The notes below the pieces were generated by a model, which searched no databases, was not told the origin of the DNA, and saw only the letters and a list, made by a program, of their open reading frames with translations. The translations under genes and the position numbers were made by a program. DNA of 6,106 nucleotides from an uncultured Brachyspira sp. (GTDB taxonomy: Bacteria; Spirochaetota; Brachyspiria; Brachyspirales; Brachyspiraceae): assembly GCA_934725655.1 (NCBI GenBank), contig CAKVCJ010000121.1, positions 1 to 6,106 on the forward strand. Reading direction: 5' to 3'. Of the stretch, positions 1-6,106 are shown one piece after another (within the stretch, counting starts at the first letter, position 1; the number at the start of each line of letters is the position of its first letter).

Positions 1-248
1 TGCTTGTTGTATTCAATATGATTAAATACGCATCCTCCGCAAATACCAGCATATCTACATTTTGCTTTTATTCTATGCCTTGAAGGGGTTATGATAGTAT
101 TTATATTAGCATAGCAAAAGTTTTTATTTTCTTTTTTTATCAATACATCAACTACATCACCCTCAACAGAATGTGCTACAAATATAATTTTCCCTTCTTT
201 AGCAATTCCATATCCGCCGTAAGCTGTGTCTATTATTTCTACTTTCAT
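1..248 (-). CDS. TrmA/RlmD-type RNA (uracil-5-)-methyltransferase, N-terminal part (runs off left edge)
   Basis: Only the first 82 codons are in the window. The protein begins MKVEIIDTAYGGYGIAKEGK, the usual opening of a TRAM RNA-binding domain (about residues 1-55). After it comes a cysteine motif C-x5-C-G-G-C (residues about 67-76, CRYAGICGGC). In RlmD/TrmA-family enzymes this supplies three of the four ligands of a [4Fe-4S] cluster; the fourth cysteine and the SAM-binding methyltransferase domain would lie beyond the edge. Family members use SAM to methylate C5 of uracil in 23S rRNA or tRNA in the cytoplasm. TRAM plus Fe-S favours the RlmD/RlmCD side over plain TrmA, but the exact target cannot be read from this fragment. 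The ATG at 248 is chosen because the TRAM homology starts there. No Shine-Dalgarno precedes it, and a TATAAT lies only 7 bases upstream. The family assignment is confident, the substrate is not. Confidence 0.9.
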   Translation of the reverse strand, partial: MKVEIIDTAYGGYGIAKEGKIIFVAHSVEGDVVDVLIKKENKNFCYANINTIITPSRHRIKAKCRYAGICGGCVFNHIEYNK

Positions 249-255
249 AGTACTT

Positions 256-286
256 ATTATACATTAAAATACTAATATATCTACAA
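256..286 (-). promoter_or_regulatory. Possible promoter giving a leaderless transcript for the RNA methyltransferase
   Basis: On the minus strand a perfect TATAAT (261-256) ends 7 bases before the ATG at 248, so transcription would begin at or within a base or two of the start codon. The best -35 match is TTGTAG (286-281) with a long 19-bp spacer, which is weak. No Shine-Dalgarno sequence exists between the box and the ATG, in keeping with leaderless translation. In DNA this AT-rich a TATAAT can arise by chance. Confidence 0.35.
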
Positions 287-387
287 ATAAATGTTAATTA
301 TATTTCTATTAAAATTAATATAAAAAATATTTTACTTTTTTTTATAAGTTCTGTTTTAATAATTAGTATTTTTCATAAATAATCTCC

Positions 388-429
388 CACTTTTATTTAG
401 CTTTATATTTATAAAGCTGAATAAAAGTG
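388..429 (-). terminator. 19-bp hairpin just past the SGNH hydrolase stop codon
   Basis: Arms 388-406 and 411-429 pair over all 19 positions with one G-T wobble (398/419) and a 4-base loop. The hairpin starts 7 bases after the stop codon of the minus-strand SGNH gene, the usual place for an intrinsic terminator or a 3' stabilising stem. The run of T expected after a terminator in the minus direction is poor (it reads GGGAGATTATTT), so termination efficiency is uncertain. Both flanking genes are on the minus strand, so the element sits between them in the direction of transcription. The stem itself is clearly seen; its role is inferred. Confidence 0.55.
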
Positions 430-436
430 AATCCTT

Positions 437-1027
437 TTACTTTATATACTCTTTCAATCTTTCAAGCAAAAAAGAAGAAAAAACATTATGCCCTTCGATA
501 TTTAAATGAACACCATCAAAATACAAATCATAATATTTATATTCTTTTAATATTTCATTCATAAACACATTATAAACATCAATACATTTTATATTATTTT
601 CTTTTGTATAGGAATTAATAAAATTAACATACTCTATTAATATGCTTGCCATCTCTTCTAAGTTGCCAATCTCAAAAAATGTAAAATCTTCTTTTATAAA
701 AGGTATAGGTGTGAATGTTATTATATCTATATTGTTTTCTTTAGATTTGTTTACTATATCAATAAAGCTTCTTTTTATATTTTCTAAGGGCTTAAAAAGA
801 AATATATCATTTACTCCGCCCATAAGTATTAAAGTATCAGCTTTTTCATTAATAACATCTTTATCAAAACGAAAATACATTGAAGAAATAGTATCTCCGT
901 TTATTCCTTTGTTTAGAAAGTGTATGTTAGAATTTTTAAATTTGTTATTTAATATAGAAGTCCAAACTTGATTTCTATTAACCATATAACCATAAGTAGT
1001 GCTGTCTCCAAGACAAACTATATTCAT
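437..1027 (-). CDS. SGNH/GDSL-family hydrolase (lipase/acylhydrolase-like)
   Basis: This is a 196-residue protein of the SGNH hydrolase fold, a family of serine esterases, thioesterases, lysophospholipases and carbohydrate acetylesterases. The diagnostic blocks are in order: block I GDSTT with nucleophile Ser9, block II glycine in NKGINGDT (about 39-46), block III GGVND with Asn73, and block V DGVHLN with Asp171 and His174 completing the triad. The length is typical of single-domain members. There is no signal peptide or membrane segment, so it probably acts in the cytoplasm; the natural ester cannot be named from sequence. The ATG at 1027 is preferred because GDS then falls at the usual distance from the N-terminus and a GGA sits 9 bases upstream. 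A TTG at 1072 would add 15 unrelated residues. It is transcribed away from the MATE gene and is followed by a strong hairpin, so it is probably monocistronic. Confidence 0.88.
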   Translation of the reverse strand: MNIVCLGDSTTYGYMVNRNQVWTSILNNKFKNSNIHFLNKGINGDTISSMYFRFDKDVINEKADTLILMGGVNDIFLFKPLENIKRSFIDIVNKSKENNIDIITFTPIPFIKEDFTFFEIGNLEEMASILIEYVNFINSYTKENNIKCIDVYNVFMNEILKEYKYYDLYFDGVHLNIEGHNVFSSFLLERLKEYIK

Positions 1028-1137
1028 AATAAAATATCCGTTATAATTAAAATTAGTGTTTATATAATACAATAGATTTAAATTATTTTCTTTAAAATAT
1101 ATTTGTGTTTTATAATAAAAAAAAATTAGTCCTAAAT

Positions 1138-1166
1138 TTGACTTTTATTTTATTGTATGCTATTAT
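1138..1166 (+). promoter_or_regulatory. Strong sigma-70-type promoter for the MATE leader
   Basis: TTGACT (1138-1143) and TATTAT (1161-1166) are separated by exactly 17 bp, and TG at 1158-1159 forms an extended -10. This is the best promoter match in the window. It predicts a start near 1172, immediately in front of the structured leader RNA and about 150 bases before the MATE start codon. The placement supports a purposeful 5' untranslated leader. Confidence 0.8.
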
Positions 1167-1171
1167 AAGCA

Positions 1172-1262
1172 GCGTTCATCGGAGGGTGAAATAACATTTG
1201 AAGTTATTAGCTGGATAAGATGATGGGTGAAACTCCCATTTTTCTTATCCAGCTTTTTTTTT
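1172..1262 (+). promoter_or_regulatory. Candidate guanidine-IV (mepA-motif) riboswitch with built-in terminator
   Basis: The leader is compact and structured. UUCA (1175-1178) pairs with UGAA (1187-1190) around the loop UCGGAGGG. AAUAAC (1190-1195) can pair with GUUAUU (1203-1208). A terminator hairpin follows. Four bases of the first loop (GGAG, 1181-1184) can pair with CUCC (1233-1236) in the terminator apex, which would form a loop-loop contact or pseudoknot. The GGAGGG looks like a Shine-Dalgarno sequence but has no well-placed start codon behind it, so a structural role is more likely. Known biology: the mepA motif, shown to be the fourth guanidine riboswitch class, lies upstream of MATE exporter genes and acts through a terminator, with ligand turning expression on. 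Position, size, architecture and target gene all agree. The class name is from recall and context, not a covariance-model hit. An unnamed ligand-sensing or peptide-coupled attenuator is the alternative. Confidence 0.66.
1209..1262 (+). terminator. Rho-independent terminator inside the MATE leader
   Basis: AGCTGGATAAG (1209-1219) pairs perfectly with CTTATCCAGCT (1244-1254), and one further A-U pair (1220/1243) gives 12 bp. Inside it ATGGG (1223-1227) pairs with CCCAT (1235-1239). The stem is followed directly by nine T (1254-1262, the first also in the stem). It stands between promoter and gene, about 60 bases before the MATE start codon. Read-through must therefore be controlled for the gene to be expressed, and this is the expression platform of the proposed riboswitch. 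Confidence 0.88.
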
Positions 1263-1323
1263 GAATTTTTTATTATTTGCAAATATTAAATAATTATTAA
1301 TAAATATTTAGGAGCTGTAAAAA

Positions 1324-2691
1324 ATGAAAGAACAAACTTTAACACAAGGAAAAATCTTAAAATCATTAATACTATTTGCTTTTCCTGTACTTATAGCATT
1401 ATTTTTGCAGGCTATGTATGGGGCAGCTGATTTAATTATAGTAGGGAAGTTTGCAGGCACTAATGAACAGTCAGGGGTTGCATCTGGAAGTCAGCTATTT
1501 AATATGATAACTATGATAATAACGGGGCTTACTATGGGTATTACTGTGTTTGTAGGTGATGCTATAGGTGCTAACAAAAAAGAAAAGGCCGGAAAAGGCA
1601 TTGGAAGCGGTATTATTATTTTTGCTGTTATAGCTATTATCATTACTTTAATTATTGTTCCTTTTAGTGATTTGATTGCAGGCTATATGCATGCTCCAAA
1701 AGAGGCATTTAAGCAAACAAGCAATTATATAAGAATATGTGCAATGGGTACTATATTTATAGTGACGTATAATTGTATAGGGGCTATATTTAGAGGAATT
1801 GGAGATTCAAAGACTCCGTTAATTACAGTTGCTATTGCTTGTTTTATCAATATAGTAGGAGATATTATATTGGTTGCTCTTTTTAATATGGGAGCTTCTG
1901 GTGCTGCTATTGCTACGGTTAGCTCTCAGGCTATTAGTGTTATATTTTCTCTTTATTTTATAAGCAAAAAGAAACTTCCTTTTAATTTTTCTAAGAAATA
2001 TATTAGATTAGAAAAAGAATGCGTAAAGAAAATACTTATTATAGGCTCTCCTATAGCTTTGCAGGAGATGCTTGTGCAGTTTTCATTTTTATTTATACAG
2101 GTAATAGTTAATGGAATGGGGGTGATGGAATCTGCTGCTGTTGGAGTTGCTGAGAAGGTCTGTGTATTTTTAATGCTTGTTGCTTCTGCTTATATGCAAT
2201 CAATATCTGCATTCGTTGCTCAAAATAATGGGGCAGGGTTGTATGAACGCTCTCAAAAGGCTTTAATTTATGGTATAAGAACTGCTTTAATTGCTGGAAT
2301 GTTTACTAGTATAATTACTTTAGTTTTTGGCAGTTTACTTTCCAATATATTTTCTAATGAAAGGTTGGTTATATTGGCATCTTATAGTTATTTAAAAGCT
2401 TATGCTATAGATTGTTTACTTACTGCTATATTATTTTGCTTTGTAGGATATTTTAATGGATGTGGAAAGACATTATTTGTGATGATACAGGGGATAGTTG
2501 GAGCTTTCTTTGTGAGGATACCTGTTGTATATTTGATGAGCCATATTGATAATGCTTCTCTTTTTTATATAGGGCTTGCTACTCCGATATTGTCTGTAGT
2601 GCAGATAATTTTATGTTTAATAGCTTATAATTATTATAAGAGAGATTTATATAATTCAGAGAAATTAGAGAAATCTTATTCTGTTATTTAA
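1324..2691 (+). CDS. MATE-family multidrug/cation efflux transporter (MepA-like), under leader-RNA control
   Basis: A 455-residue inner-membrane protein of the MATE (multidrug and toxic compound extrusion) family, of normal family length. It is hydrophobic throughout with about 12 membrane segments in two halves. The first helix carries QAMYGAADLIIVGKFAG with Asp36, the region where MATE pumps have a conserved acidic residue. The half-domain motifs FRGIGDSKTP (156-165) and FVAQNNGAG (297-305) are typical. MATE proteins export cationic drugs or organic cations using a sodium or proton gradient. Start: GGAG at 1311-1314 lies 9 bases before the ATG. The gene is preceded by a strong promoter and an attenuating leader. 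If that leader is the guanidine-IV class, the physiological substrate is likely guanidinium or a related toxic cation; this is inference from regulation, not from the protein. A second MATE gene follows 283 bp downstream on the same strand. Confidence 0.93.
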   Translation: MKEQTLTQGKILKSLILFAFPVLIALFLQAMYGAADLIIVGKFAGTNEQSGVASGSQLFNMITMIITGLTMGITVFVGDAIGANKKEKAGKGIGSGIIIFAVIAIIITLIIVPFSDLIAGYMHAPKEAFKQTSNYIRICAMGTIFIVTYNCIGAIFRGIGDSKTPLITVAIACFINIVGDIILVALFNMGASGAAIATVSSQAISVIFSLYFISKKKLPFNFSKKYIRLEKECVKKILIIGSPIALQEMLVQFSFLFIQVIVNGMGVMESAAVGVAEKVCVFLMLVASAYMQSISAFVAQNNGAGLYERSQKALIYGIRTALIAGMFTSIITLVFGSLLSNIFSNERLVILASYSYLKAYAIDCLLTAILFCFVGYFNGCGKTLFVMIQGIVGAFFVRIPVVYLMSHIDNASLFYIGLATPILSVVQIILCLIAYNYYKRDLYNSEKLEKSYSVI

Positions 2692-2762
2692 TAATATTAG
2701 AGATGTTTAAAAAATAGCTTTGTATAATTTTATATTTAATTAATAGATTTAATATTGTTTAT

Positions 2763-2864
2763 TTGCACTTTTTGGTTCTTTTGACGAAGTCCGCACCGCG
2801 AGCTGCGGGAAAAAGAACTGGGGTGCTGCACGGTGTGTACTTCGTTAAGGGCAAAGCCCTGCAA
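2763..2864 (+). repeat. GC-rich, self-complementary intergenic block (probable dispersed repeat or structured RNA)
   Basis: This stretch is far richer in G+C than its surroundings. Its main feature is a long imperfect palindrome: 2781-2798 pairs with 2831-2848 over 18 positions with one mismatch (2791/2838) and two G-T wobbles. A second fold competes with it: GTTCTTTT (2775-2782) matches AAAAGAAC (2811-2818) and encloses CCGC (2796-2799) with GCGG (2805-2808). A third hairpin, AGGGC-AAA-GCCCT (2848-2860), follows without a T-run. The ends carry the short inverted match TTGCA (2763-2767) and TGCAA (2860-2864). No start codon with a ribosome site lies in it. The impression is of a small mobile or dispersed intergenic element characteristic of this genus, but its copy number cannot be seen here. 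It could also be a non-coding RNA or leader element for the MATE gene downstream. Confidence 0.5.
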
Positions 2865-2909
2865 GTATTTAAAATAAAAAAATATTTTTATAAACTTAAA
2901 ATTTTTTGC

Positions 2910-2939
2910 TATGTGTTTGTATTTTTTCTAAAACACATA
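2910..2939 (+). promoter_or_regulatory. 9-bp inverted repeat upstream of the second MATE gene, operator-like
   Basis: TATGTGTTT (2910-2918) and AAACACATA (2931-2939) are perfect inverted copies separated by 12 bases, ending 35 bases before the proposed start codon. The half-site spacing of about two helical turns fits a dimeric repressor site, and the right arm borders a weak TATAAC (2938-2943). A hairpin in the mRNA leader is equally possible. No regulator gene is in the window. Confidence 0.4.
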
Positions 2940-2974
2940 TAACATATATGCATAATTTTTTGCAGGTTTTTATT

Positions 2975-4306
2975 ATGACAAAAGATATGACTGTAGGAAG
3001 TCCGTTTAAGACTATAATATATTTTTCTATACCGATGCTTATAGGAGGAATATTTCAGCAATTCTATGGAGTTGCTGATACAATTATAATAGGCAAGTTT
3101 GTAGGTTCAAGGGCATTAGCTTCTATTGGGGCTACTACTTCTACTATGTTTTTCTTTTTATCCTTTGCTATAGGTTTTACTAATGCTTTTTCTATAGTAA
3201 TGGGGCAGTTCTTTGGGGCAAAAAATGAAAGTATGCTTAAAACTACTTTTCTTAACTCAATATATTTAACATTATTTAGCTCTTTAATTCTTTTTATACT
3301 TGGCATATTTTTATCAAGACCTATTATGATATTATTGAAAACACCAGAAGACATAATAGATAATTCTGTATTATATTTGCAAATATGTGTGGGCTTATCA
3401 TTTGGGCAGCTTATATATAATGGAGCTTCCAGTATATTAAGGGCTTTGGGAGACAGTAAGACTCCTTTATATTTTTTAATACTTACAACTGTTTTAAATA
3501 TTATATTAGATTTAATTTTTGTTGCTTTGCTCAAAATGAATGTATTTGGTGTTGCCATTGCTACTGTAATATCGCAAATAATATCTGCTTTTTTAAGTGT
3601 GCTTTATATTGTAAAAAAATTCCCTATGTTAAAACTTCATAGAGAGGATATAGTTTTTAATTTTGAAAATTTATTTATGATAATAAAAATAGGCGTTTCT
3701 ATGAGTGTGCAGGCAATATTTTTATCTATAGGGGAGATGATTATAAGCGGAGTTGTTAATACATTCGGCACTAATGTTGTAGCATCATACACAACAGGAA
3801 ACAGAATAAATCAATTTGCTTCTATGGCATATTTTGTAGTGTCTGAAGCTTTTGCCGTTTATACGGCGCAAAATTTCGGGGCTCAAAAATTTGATAGAAT
3901 AAAAGAAGGTTTTAGAAGCATAATAATATTATCATTATCTTTAAGCTTGTTTGCAACATTTATTATATTTATATTTGGGGATAATTTGATAAGACTATTT
4001 ATTTCAAGCAATGATGAATATATAGAAATAATAGTGGAGATATGCAAAGGCTATTTAAGAATATCATCAATGTTTTATCCATTTTTGGCTATAATATTAT
4101 TATATAACAACTCTATAAGGGCAATAGGAAAAGCACTTATTCCTTTAATTTCTGGAATAGTTGAGCTTGTTATAAAGGTAGGAGGTTCAGTATTTTTGTC
4201 TATACCATTTGGATATGTTGGGGTTTGGTTTGCAAATCCTGTTGGATGGGCTTTGGGTATACTTCCTTCCTGCATTTATTTTCACAAGTATGCCTTTAAA
4301 AAGTAA
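2975..4306 (+). CDS. MATE-family efflux transporter (second copy)
   Basis: A 443-residue MATE inner-membrane transporter with about 12 membrane segments. The opening MTKDMTVGSPFKTIIYFSIP and FQQFYGVADTIIIGKFVG (Asp35 in helix 1) are characteristic of the NorM/DinF-like subgroup common in Firmicutes and spirochaetes. RALGDSKTPL (156-165) and TAQNFGAQKFDRI (297-309) mark the two halves. The ATG at 2975 is chosen because it gives the family's standard N-terminus and AGG lies 8 bases upstream. An in-frame TTG at 2906 and ATG at 2948 would add an unrelated tail. It is clearly diverged from the upstream MATE protein, so the pair is not a recent duplication. Its leader shows no terminator or riboswitch like that of the first gene. 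It has instead a 9-bp inverted repeat and a GC-rich block, so its control is probably different. The substrate is unknown. Confidence 0.92.
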   Translation: MTKDMTVGSPFKTIIYFSIPMLIGGIFQQFYGVADTIIIGKFVGSRALASIGATTSTMFFFLSFAIGFTNAFSIVMGQFFGAKNESMLKTTFLNSIYLTLFSSLILFILGIFLSRPIMILLKTPEDIIDNSVLYLQICVGLSFGQLIYNGASSILRALGDSKTPLYFLILTTVLNIILDLIFVALLKMNVFGVAIATVISQIISAFLSVLYIVKKFPMLKLHREDIVFNFENLFMIIKIGVSMSVQAIFLSIGEMIISGVVNTFGTNVVASYTTGNRINQFASMAYFVVSEAFAVYTAQNFGAQKFDRIKEGFRSIIILSLSLSLFATFIIFIFGDNLIRLFISSNDEYIEIIVEICKGYLRISSMFYPFLAIILLYNNSIRAIGKALIPLISGIVELVIKVGGSVFLSIPFGYVGVWFANPVGWALGILPSCIYFHKYAFKK

Positions 4307-4313
4307 AAATTAT

Positions 4314-4342
4314 TTTAAAAAAATTAATTATTATATTATAAT
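4314..4342 (+). promoter_or_regulatory. Possible promoter for the glycosyltransferase-like gene
   Basis: TATAAT (4337-4342) lies 24 bases before the ATG at 4366, with a poor -35 (TTTAAA, 4314-4319) at 17 bp. The 59-bp gap after the second MATE gene has no terminator, so read-through from upstream is also possible. The composition here is nearly all A and T, which makes the match weak evidence. Confidence 0.3.
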
Positions 4343-4365
4343 ATAAAACAAAAGGGTTTTTTAAT

Positions 4366-5451
4366 ATGGGTTTTGGAAATAAAGTCTTAAATGGCAAGAT
4401 AAGAGCAAAATTAGGTATAAATATTTCTAATAAATTAAGAGATAATTCAGTATCTATAAATGATGTAGATAAAGAATTATATATATCATATCCTTATTCA
4501 AGTATAAATAATTTCTTATGCAAATTAAATAATGCTAAAATATATTCAAGCTGGGGATTTTATTTTACAAATGATAATAAACTCATAAGGGAAACCATTC
4601 CATTTGAGAGGGTATTGTCTTTACATGGAGAACTTGGAGGCAGATTTGCTTTTTATAAGTTTAGATTTAAAAAGAAAACGGATTTGAATGTTTTTAGTTT
4701 GCAATCTATATGGAATGTATGTTTTGGACATTGGATACATGAAACTTTGCCTAAACTTTTTATATTGAAGGATTTAGGATATATAGATAAAATAGATGCT
4801 ATTGTTTTAGGAAACGGATGCAGCTCTAAATTTCATAAAGATAGTTTAGCTATTTTTGGAATTGATAAAAAAAAGATAATATATATATCTGATGAAACAG
4901 AAATTTTATGTAAGAACTTATATTTATCTTCTTTTCCAAGTAGAAATACTCATTATCCAGATATTTGGGTATGCAGCAAATATAGAGAATTATCAAAAGA
5001 ATTAATAAAAAATTATGATGCAGAAAAATTTCCAAAAAAAATATATTTAAGCAGAAAAAATGTAAAGACTAGAAAAATCTTAAATGAAGATAAACTTATG
5101 GATATATTAAATAGATTAGGCTATAAGATGATATGCCCTGAAGATTATTCTTTGCAAGAGCAGTTTTGTATGTTTTATAATGCAGACAAAATAATATCAA
5201 TACTCGGAAGCGGACTTACAAACCTTGTATGCTATAAAGAAAATATATCAGTGCTTGGTATAGTTCCGAATATAAGACAGGAAGATACATATGAATATAT
5301 AGTTAATACTATAGGAGGAAAATATTTTCAATATATAGAAAGTGATGAAAAAAATTATAGGTATCAAAATATGCATAATAAAACAAATGATTTTGATTTT
5401 TATATTGATTTAGAGAAGTTCAAAAATGTTTTAGAAGAGTTTGAAAAATAG
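4366..5451 (+). CDS. Family-61 (DUF563) glycosyltransferase-like protein
   Basis: A 361-residue protein resembling the GT61/DUF563 family, which includes enzymes linked to capsular or other surface polysaccharides. Matching elements are NVCFGHWIHETLPKLFIL (117-134; His122, Trp123, Glu126), then IYLSRKN (226-232), RKILNE (236-241), a region near SLQEQFCMFYNADKI (262-276), and GSGLTNLV (281-288). In most relatives the last block reads close to G-x-H-G-A-G-L-T-N; here it is SILGSGLTN, without the histidine. There is no signal peptide or membrane segment, so it should work in the cytoplasm on a sugar-nucleotide donor. GGG at 4354-4356 lies 9 bases before the ATG. No other polysaccharide gene is visible, so the acceptor and pathway are unknown. 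It ends 8 bp from the convergent uvrB gene. The family call is fairly sure, the activity is not. Confidence 0.78.
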   Translation: MGFGNKVLNGKIRAKLGINISNKLRDNSVSINDVDKELYISYPYSSINNFLCKLNNAKIYSSWGFYFTNDNKLIRETIPFERVLSLHGELGGRFAFYKFRFKKKTDLNVFSLQSIWNVCFGHWIHETLPKLFILKDLGYIDKIDAIVLGNGCSSKFHKDSLAIFGIDKKKIIYISDETEILCKNLYLSSFPSRNTHYPDIWVCSKYRELSKELIKNYDAEKFPKKIYLSRKNVKTRKILNEDKLMDILNRLGYKMICPEDYSLQEQFCMFYNADKIISILGSGLTNLVCYKENISVLGIVPNIRQEDTYEYIVNTIGGKYFQYIESDEKNYRYQNMHNKTNDFDFYIDLEKFKNVLEEFEK

Positions 5452-5459
5452 TGCTTATA

Positions 5460-6106
5460 TTATTTATTTGCCTTTTTTGACGTGATGTTTTTATGCACAG
5501 ATTTTTTTGCGGGCTTTAATTGTTTAAGCTGATTTATTTTCTCTCTTATCTCGATAGCCTTTTCAAACTCTAAACTGTCTGAAGCTTTTTTCATCTCTTT
5601 TTCAAGCTCTTTTATATAATCATCGCTTTTTTGCTCTGGGTCAATTTTTACTCTTTCATTGAAACGTCTAAAGTCAAAATGAAGCTCATAAGAAGTTTCA
5701 ACTTTTTCTTCTCTTTCAATTATATCTTGTATTTTTTTGATTATTGTTTTTGGAGTGATGTTATGTTCTTTGTTGTAGTCCATTTGTATTTTTCTTCTTC
5801 TTTCTGTTTCATCAATGGCTACTTTCATAGCATCGCTTATAGTATCAGCAAACATTATTACTCTTCCGTTAGCATTTCTTGCAGCACGTCCTATAGTTTG
5901 TATTAGGGTAGTGGTGTTTCTTAAAAAGCCTGTTTTGTCTGCATCAAGTATTAGTATGAGTGATACTTCAGGCACATCAAGCCCCTCTCTCAAAAGGTTA
6001 ATGCCCACAAGCACATCAAAAGCTCCGAGTCTCAAATCTCTTATTATCTCAACACGTTCAACTGTTTGAATATCTGAATGCAAATAACGAGTCCTCACTC
6101 CATTTT
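5460..6106 (-). CDS. uvrB: UvrABC nucleotide-excision repair subunit B, C-terminal part (runs off right edge)
   Basis: The last 214 residues of UvrB are present; the N-terminal ATP-binding and beta-hairpin parts lie beyond the edge (family length about 660-680). UvrB receives damaged DNA from UvrA, verifies the lesion and recruits UvrC. Visible elements, numbered within the fragment, are [20 protein letters not shown] (2-21), helicase motif V in [16 protein letters not shown] (33-48), motif [14 protein letters not shown] (69-80), the [12 protein letters not shown] segment (110-121), and a C-terminal UVR domain (about 161-194, with [13 protein letters not shown]) that contacts UvrC. A short lysine-rich tail ends the protein. 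A GTG at 6098 is not the real start, because the frame stays open to the edge with matching UvrB residues (N-G) before it. Nothing suggests a defect in the visible part. Confidence 0.97.

Follow-up and report, generated by a model that had tools for sequence, protein, structure and literature searches.

A probable guanidine-IV/Gd4v-type riboswitch ahead of a MATE exporter gene in Brachyspira

We analysed a 6,106-nucleotide (nt) stretch of DNA from an uncultured Brachyspira sp. (contig CAKVCJ010000121.1 of assembly GCA_934725655.1; hereafter, the window), in which an RNA leader precedes a gene for a MATE exporter (MATE1). The leader (1167-1263) is probably an ON switch of the guanidine-IV/Gd4v type, which would respond to a small guanidine-like or amine compound, control the exporter and form part of a unit derived from Bacillota. 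We favour this reading because related leaders lie upstream of most MATE relatives examined, covary, preserve a kissing loop and the promoter spacing, are followed by MATE genes in a search made without regard to them and, in Brachyspira, precede two different MATE genes. Membership of the guanidine-IV/Gd4v-type riboswitch class is well supported by sequence and by covariation; guanidine is a less likely ligand. When no ligand is present, the terminator (1209-1262) would stop transcription; ligand binding would hold a predicted kissing loop of CAU (1177-1179) with AUG (1220-1222) in place, keeping the terminator from closing and allowing the MATE exporter to be produced. Read-through on binding is proposed by analogy with guanidine-IV, as described in passages of PMC7736828 and PMC11611296, and the ligand would be a small guanidine-like or amine compound, not free guanidine, that the exporter expels.

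A sequence-only reading of the window had proposed a compact multi-hairpin leader with a GGAGGG loop, preceded by an extended -10 promoter, with an intrinsic terminator after it and then a MATE gene, and each of these parts was borne out. The MATE1 product matches PF01554 (E = 1.7e-49) and scores 217.9 bits with TIGR00797, whose cut-off is 147.4. Positions 1172-1264 fold at -34 kcal/mol, compared with a mean of -17.6 for shuffled sequences (z = -6.0; 0 of 200 shuffles as good), and place GGAGGG at 1181-1186. In alignment A1, made with MAFFT from 42 leaders and not fitted to structure, C1180, G1182, A1183, G1184 and G1186 are invariant and U1179, G1181 and G1185 nearly so. The terminator stem (P2) is paired in 98.5% of cells in these leaders, with U following; in the window, nine U occupy 1254-1262 and the first of them is paired. 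A pattern scan for terminators reported only the top hairpin (1222-1240) in this region, and terminator-like sites in the whole window numbered 2 versus 2.1 in shuffles. Over the whole alignment, 90.6% of cells are paired (79.9% in 500 shuffles that retained relatedness), two-sided changes occur in 15 of 24 pairs (8.4 in shuffles) and the covariation score is 0.330 (0.165 in shuffles); none of the 500 shuffles was as high on any of five measures, and pairing fell to 37-47% once partners were slid. RNAalifold by itself recovers the terminator, as well as the hairpin that links P1 to P2. The earlier reading had named a test for covariation among leaders of orthologous MATE genes, and in the related leaders such covariation is seen.

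A kissing loop between the P1 and P2 loops is predicted and is conserved across related leaders. From A1 we built a covariance model (R1), and its 89 matches at E ≤ 1e-5 in 88 sources, minus one antisense match, gave 88 leaders, 42 of which had trained the model; tandem leaders were left out. For each, we asked whether the three bases ahead of the C in CGGAG, allowing a shift of one, can pair with the three that follow GGAUAAG. All three pairs can form in 81 of 88 leaders; redealing the triplets among leaders 1000 times gave 49.0 on average and never more than 59. Watson-Crick pairs only are found in 69 (redealt mean 44.1, maximum 52). Among 84 distinct leaders the count is 77 versus 46.5 expected from redealing, and thinning gave 65 of 71 versus 36.2 (maximum 46) at below 90% identity and 45 of 51 versus 23.7 (maximum 33) at below 80%. 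Pairing types number ten, some with G-U; CAU/AUG is present in 60 of the 88 leaders and GUG in 3. The 3' strand opens with a base that RNAalifold joins to the 3' arm of the terminator (30 A-U and 7 G-C pairs), so this base may serve both states. Beyond the triplet, the next 26 nt have a median energy of -6.4 in the 88 leaders and -1.8 in shuffles.

These patterns bear on whether the leader has a small-molecule ligand at all. It could instead be a constitutive terminator or attenuator, its loops serving RNA stability or a trans-acting factor; the ligand of the leader is a predicted one, and Gd4v, its parent variant, is an orphan as well (PMC9788692, in part). Covariation over ten kissing-loop types, the near-invariant CGGAGG and GGAUAAG and the presence of different MATE genes downstream nevertheless fit a ligand pocket better, and the longest frame to start within the leader, 20 codons in length, runs into the terminator, which leaves little room for leader-peptide attenuation. 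We regard a switch without a ligand as very unlikely.

The proposed promoter consists of TTGACT at 1138-1143, a 17-nt spacer, TG at 1158-1159 and TATTAT at 1161-1166, and was the sole plus-strand site in our scan to combine 10 of 12 matches with TG ahead of the second hexamer. Because promoter-like sites are equally common in shuffles of the window (46 in the window versus a mean of 40.7, standard deviation 6.1), we base the claim on conserved position. In a set of 62 leaders (61 loci plus the window), 55 were examinable over the 75 nt ahead of CGGAG. The best site had at least 9 of 12 matches in 45 of these, a level reached by ~10% of letter shuffles, and the -10 element ended 11-14 nt ahead of CGGAG in 43. 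The conserved place therefore suggests that the transcript starts at the 5' edge of the leader.

Among the best 80 of 491 MATE1 relatives, the nearest are from Brachyspira (96% and 87% identity), followed by Clostridia and related metagenome-assembled genomes (L002-L022, 64-75%). R1 finds a leader at E ≤ 1e-3 upstream of the gene in 61 of these 80 loci (41 in the training set and 20 outside it), with a median gap of 34 nt to the gene. In genomes picked without regard to MATE, 20 of the 22 frames downstream of R1 matches that were scanned with Pfam encode MatE (PF01554), a sample that is biased because R1 was trained on MATE leaders. The other two are a cytidylate-kinase-like fragment (L114, PF13189) and a frame at a short locus with no family (L139); neither SMR (sugE) nor transaminase genes occur among the 22. 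At E ≤ 0.01, R1 matched 16 of 291 sampled genomes in the class of genome G003, where several of the weakest matches had no leader motif and were left out of the Pfam scan, and 13 of 296 in the class of genome G006, for which searches over class and phylum overlap largely. The six genomes in the family of G213 yielded nothing useful.

Two arrangements depart from one leader directly ahead of one exporter gene. At L011, a cytidylate-kinase-like gene (5364-5975; PF13189, E = 4.8e-43) sits between leader and MATE. Tandem leaders were identified by pattern and by eye at 10 of the 80 MATE loci (L027, L026, L040, L045, L046, L049, L055, L064, L065 and L073) and comprise two CGGAGG loops, two GGAUAAG-like arms and one common terminator 3' arm; because this arm is shared, the two 5' arms could compete for pairing. 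The tandem leaders of L045 and L046 have the same sequence, and that of L027 (5834-5984) folds at -59.4 kcal/mol (z = -6.6).

Spirochaete matches are concentrated in Brachyspira: R1 matched 22 of 296 spirochaete genomes, and 19 of these are among the 26 Brachyspira genomes. The window-type leader occurs in four of them (G001, G002, G023 and G025; 96-99 bits). A second, more divergent type, at 41-56 bits, occupies 17 places in 16 of the 26 genomes (G002 included) and consists of AAGUUCAUCGGAGGACUU followed by GGUUGGAUAAGAUG with a UCUAA...UUAGA hairpin. It precedes a different MATE gene at 16 of these places (L096-L108, L110, L111 and L090), as judged by comparing the frames by eye and, for L090, by checking PF01554. 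All 14 weak top hairpins among the 88 leaders are of this second type, 13 at -0.9 and one at -0.2. At L109 the second-type leader has decayed; the terminator is kept, the CGGAGG loop is lost and no intact MATE frame was seen downstream. The remaining three spirochaete matches are L460, L461 and L462, of which the last two are too marginal to be included among the leaders; near the L461 match lies a gene that by eye resembles a cytidylate kinase. The L460 leader has the same sequence as L185 (1319-1414), a leader with a CAC/GUG kissing loop that precedes a MATE gene on the Treponema saccharophilum plasmid pTS2. A search of the open-access literature by title and abstract start found no report of this leader in Brachyspira, the supplements of the discovery papers being outside its scope.

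We compared the leader with guanidine-IV and Gd4v through published descriptions in text, drawing on parts of the papers cited. In guanidine-IV, two loops kiss, one of them within the terminator, and both this contact and read-through are promoted by guanidinium (PMC7736828, PMC11611296, PMC12186494); the kissing-loop anti-termination is experimental (PMC11611296). The sequence-only reading had assigned the leader to this class and had worried that a spirochaete might fall outside its range, a concern that drops away because guanidine-IV is already listed in Spirochaetes, with MATE/mepA among its targets (PMC7736828 Table 1; PMC12186494). The assignment itself stands in part: the two-loop leader, terminator, MATE layout and covariation agree with it, and the exact class is not supported, the kissing loop being CAU/AUG. 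The window shares with guanidine-IV P1 and P2 loops predicted to kiss (a likeness of sequence), a P2 that is the terminator and a MATE target.

One difference lies in the kissing-loop letters. The second loop of guanidine-IV holds a 97% conserved G and U, and sugE is the most common gene downstream (PMC7736828, PMC11611296). G66C in a Lactococcus guanidine-IV RNA eliminated guanidine-dependent modulation (PMC7736828), and in a C. botulinum RNA, G71C greatly reduced the kissing-loop state, which C30G/G71C did not restore (PMC11611296). These mutants, together with those named in PMC9788692, imply a G-U at what we take to be the same place, in contrast to CAU/AUG in the window. A1178-U1221 and U1179-A1220 are spaced by 43 and 41 nt, and in the C. 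botulinum RNA the pairs A29-U72 and C30-G71 have these same spacings. Should the two kissing loops correspond, a mapping drawn from published text, the window would have A in place of the conserved G, and A-U in place of the conserved G and U. For guanidine-IV position D1, always G in a sugE-linked subset, the likeliest window positions, U1216 and 1240-1243, are U, although this placement is a guess. An A at the presumed G66/G71 place would, taken with the effects of G71C, argue against guanidine as the ligand.

A rival reading is a true guanidine-IV riboswitch, in which the leader senses guanidinium and the MATE protein exports it. Its overall architecture and layout are those of the window, and both the MATE/mepA targets and the presence in Spirochaetes lie within its published range (PMC7736828 Table 1; PMC12186494). 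However, the mutants G66C and G71C are impaired at the base that appears to be A here, and SMR genes are found in 0 of 22 downstream frames. We therefore judge true guanidine-IV unlikely. As a reference for guanidine-IV, SMR genes were sought in 149 and 148 genomes and 12 loci were scanned with Rfam: guanidine-I (RF00442) precedes the SMR exporter in 7 and the other 5 have no Rfam match. Guanidine-I has another structure and no match in the window. Upstream of two SMR loci in viral contigs, no guanidine-IV-like leader was recognised by eye. Two DNA patterns run on viral contigs gave, among the matches listed, one candidate past the structural filter, which was rejected by eye, and three large records from a plasmid collection gave one weak match (22 bits), in appearance a terminator of another kind. 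None of these searches produced a sequence identifiable as guanidine-IV.

Gd4v is a guanidine-IV variant with an orphan ligand, for which the consulted portions of PMC9788692 report that guanidine bound one RNA weakly and two not, that the motif is enriched in mammalian guts and that a transaminase, GNAT or MATE gene lies downstream. Its two hairpins, loop-loop pseudoknot and 3' hairpin that is an intrinsic terminator with a top hairpin resemble the leader, as does a downstream MATE gene (PMC9788692). The window has a terminator-top hairpin at 1223-1239, whose identity with the published D2 is drawn from a text description; the downstream gene falls within the Gd4v set, being MATE in 20 of the 22 frames; and for many of the relatives found, the record title includes the name of a gut or faecal sample. 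On the other side, the window has CAU/AUG where the tested Cloacibacillus RNA has a highly conserved G57-U58, by our own mapping (PMC9788692), and a transaminase is encoded in 0 of the 22 frames. The main text on Gd4v (PMC9788692) does not mention Spirochaetes, Brachyspira or Treponema.

A more specific proposal is that, within the guanidine-IV superfamily, the CAU/AUG leaders form a third specificity class, distinct from both guanidine-IV and Gd4v. This would be a switch dedicated to exporters and responding to a gut amine or guanidine derivative, moving between phyla as a promoter-riboswitch-MATE cassette and serving two Brachyspira MATE genes. We hold this to be possible, if somewhat doubtful. 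A group linked to exporters and distinguished by its kissing-loop letters would supply short RNAs and transporters for direct tests of candidate gut amines, and its occurrence in culturable gut spirochaetes and many Bacillota bears on the question of the Gd4v ligand.

Several observations weigh against a ligand-responsive switch of the guanidine-IV/Gd4v type. Rfam gave no relevant match in the window at E ≤ 10, or in the 12 loci at gathering thresholds, with a library not shown to hold guanidine-IV, so that this check says nothing about that class. The kissing-loop letters differ from those deduced for both published motifs, and the full three-pair loop is missing in 7 of 88 leaders (L130, L116, L136, L137, L056, L138 and L141). 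Two-sided changes in the RNAalifold pairing of the 3' strand mean that part of the kissing-loop covariation could stem from terminator pairing, and the covariation shuffles keep kinship among the leaders. P1 is weak in the window, where the isolated fold pairs UCAUC with GGUGA and so places the kissing-loop bases inside P1. The top hairpin, despite two-sided change in 4 of 5 pairs, is the weakest helix (68.9% of cells paired); RNAalifold recovers two of its pairs, and its segment is under -1 kcal/mol in 74 of 88 leaders but also in 62% of letter shuffles. No leader match at E ≤ 1e-3 was found for 19 of the 80 MATE relatives. Finally, ligand binding and read-through are predictions.

The promoter, leader and MATE1 gene lie on a segment that some close relatives carry and others lack. 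In genomes G021 and G022, the GDSL lipase-like gene adjoins the second MATE gene (97% identical to that of the window), and window positions ~1110-2920 are missing. Genome G025 carries the segment at the same site with both flanks matching, B. pilosicoli (L032) is collinear over window positions 1-4760, and in G023 homology runs from 1120 rightwards with none left of 1120. In G002, the homologous block covers 1125-2699 only, at another place and at 82.9% identity, starting just ahead of the promoter and stopping just past the MATE gene. A MATE tree (quick method, midpoint root) of 47 rows, drawing on 42 of the 80 loci, places the five Brachyspira MATE1 rows in one clade (SH-aLRT support 100), nested in clades of 26 and 27 rows (97 and 98) that otherwise hold Bacillota and one unassigned row.

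Transfer of the promoter-leader-MATE unit into Brachyspira from Bacillota is likely on this evidence. Loss from G021 and G022, with old Brachyspira copies, retains some probability because the empty site alone gives no direction, and the tree that speaks to direction is quick and midpoint-rooted. Yet the MATE1 clade sits inside an otherwise Bacillota clade, save for the unassigned row, and of the 26 Brachyspira genomes only 4 have the window-type leader, which in one of these lies at another locus; we consider loss quite unlikely. A riboswitch and gene that lie within one such unit bear on the scattering of switches over phyla, a possibility raised by the Gd4v authors (PMC9788692, in part).

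Table 1. Features of the window, with positions, strand and basis.
Feature	Position	Strand	Basis or remark
RlmD-like methyltransferase gene, start	3-248	minus	
GDSL lipase-like gene	between RlmD-like gene and leader	minus	
Segment with promoter, leader, MATE1 and intergenic tail	1110-2920 (approximate)		two related Brachyspira genomes lack it at this site
Extended -10 promoter (TTGACT, 17 nt, TG-N-TATTAT)	1138-1166	plus	pattern scan; spacing common to related leaders
P1 hairpin region with conserved loop (CGGAGGG, 1180-1186)	1175-1190	plus	conservation in 42 leaders; exact P1 pairs unsettled
Predicted kissing loop, 5' strand (CAU)	1177-1179	plus	pairs with 1220-1222; complementarity across leaders
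Linker hairpin (AUAAC...GUUAU), between P1 and terminator	1191-1207	plus	two-sided changes in 5 of 5 pairs; 92.2% of cells paired
P2, intrinsic terminator stem (1209-1219/1244-1254; U run 1254-1262)	1209-1254	plus	fold; covariation
Predicted kissing loop, 3' strand (AUG), 5' side of terminator internal loop	1220-1222	plus	complementarity; RNAalifold covariation of first base
Terminator-top hairpin	1223-1239	plus	window fold; covariation; segment energies in 88 leaders
AGGAG, ribosome-binding-site-like	1310-1314	plus	sequence
MATE1 exporter gene (455 amino acids)	1324-2691	plus	frame; PF01554; TIGR00797
Second MATE gene	2975-4306 (frame)		right of MATE1
Glycosyltransferase-61-like gene	4366-5451		
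uvrB, end of gene	right edge of window	minus	

Three further elements were noted outside the leader. Past MATE1, a G+C-rich hairpin element occupies 2760-2880, within which 2770-2870 folds at -38.3 kcal/mol (z = -2.6); positions 2760-2825 are identical in B. pilosicoli (L032), G023 matches the last 32 bases only and G025 none. At 388-429, just beyond the end of the GDSL gene, a 19-pair inverted repeat (minus strand) is probably the terminator of that gene. The glycosyltransferase-61-like gene appears to lie on a second variable segment (4306-5470), as homology in G021, G022, G025 and G023 skips from ~4305 to ~5470.
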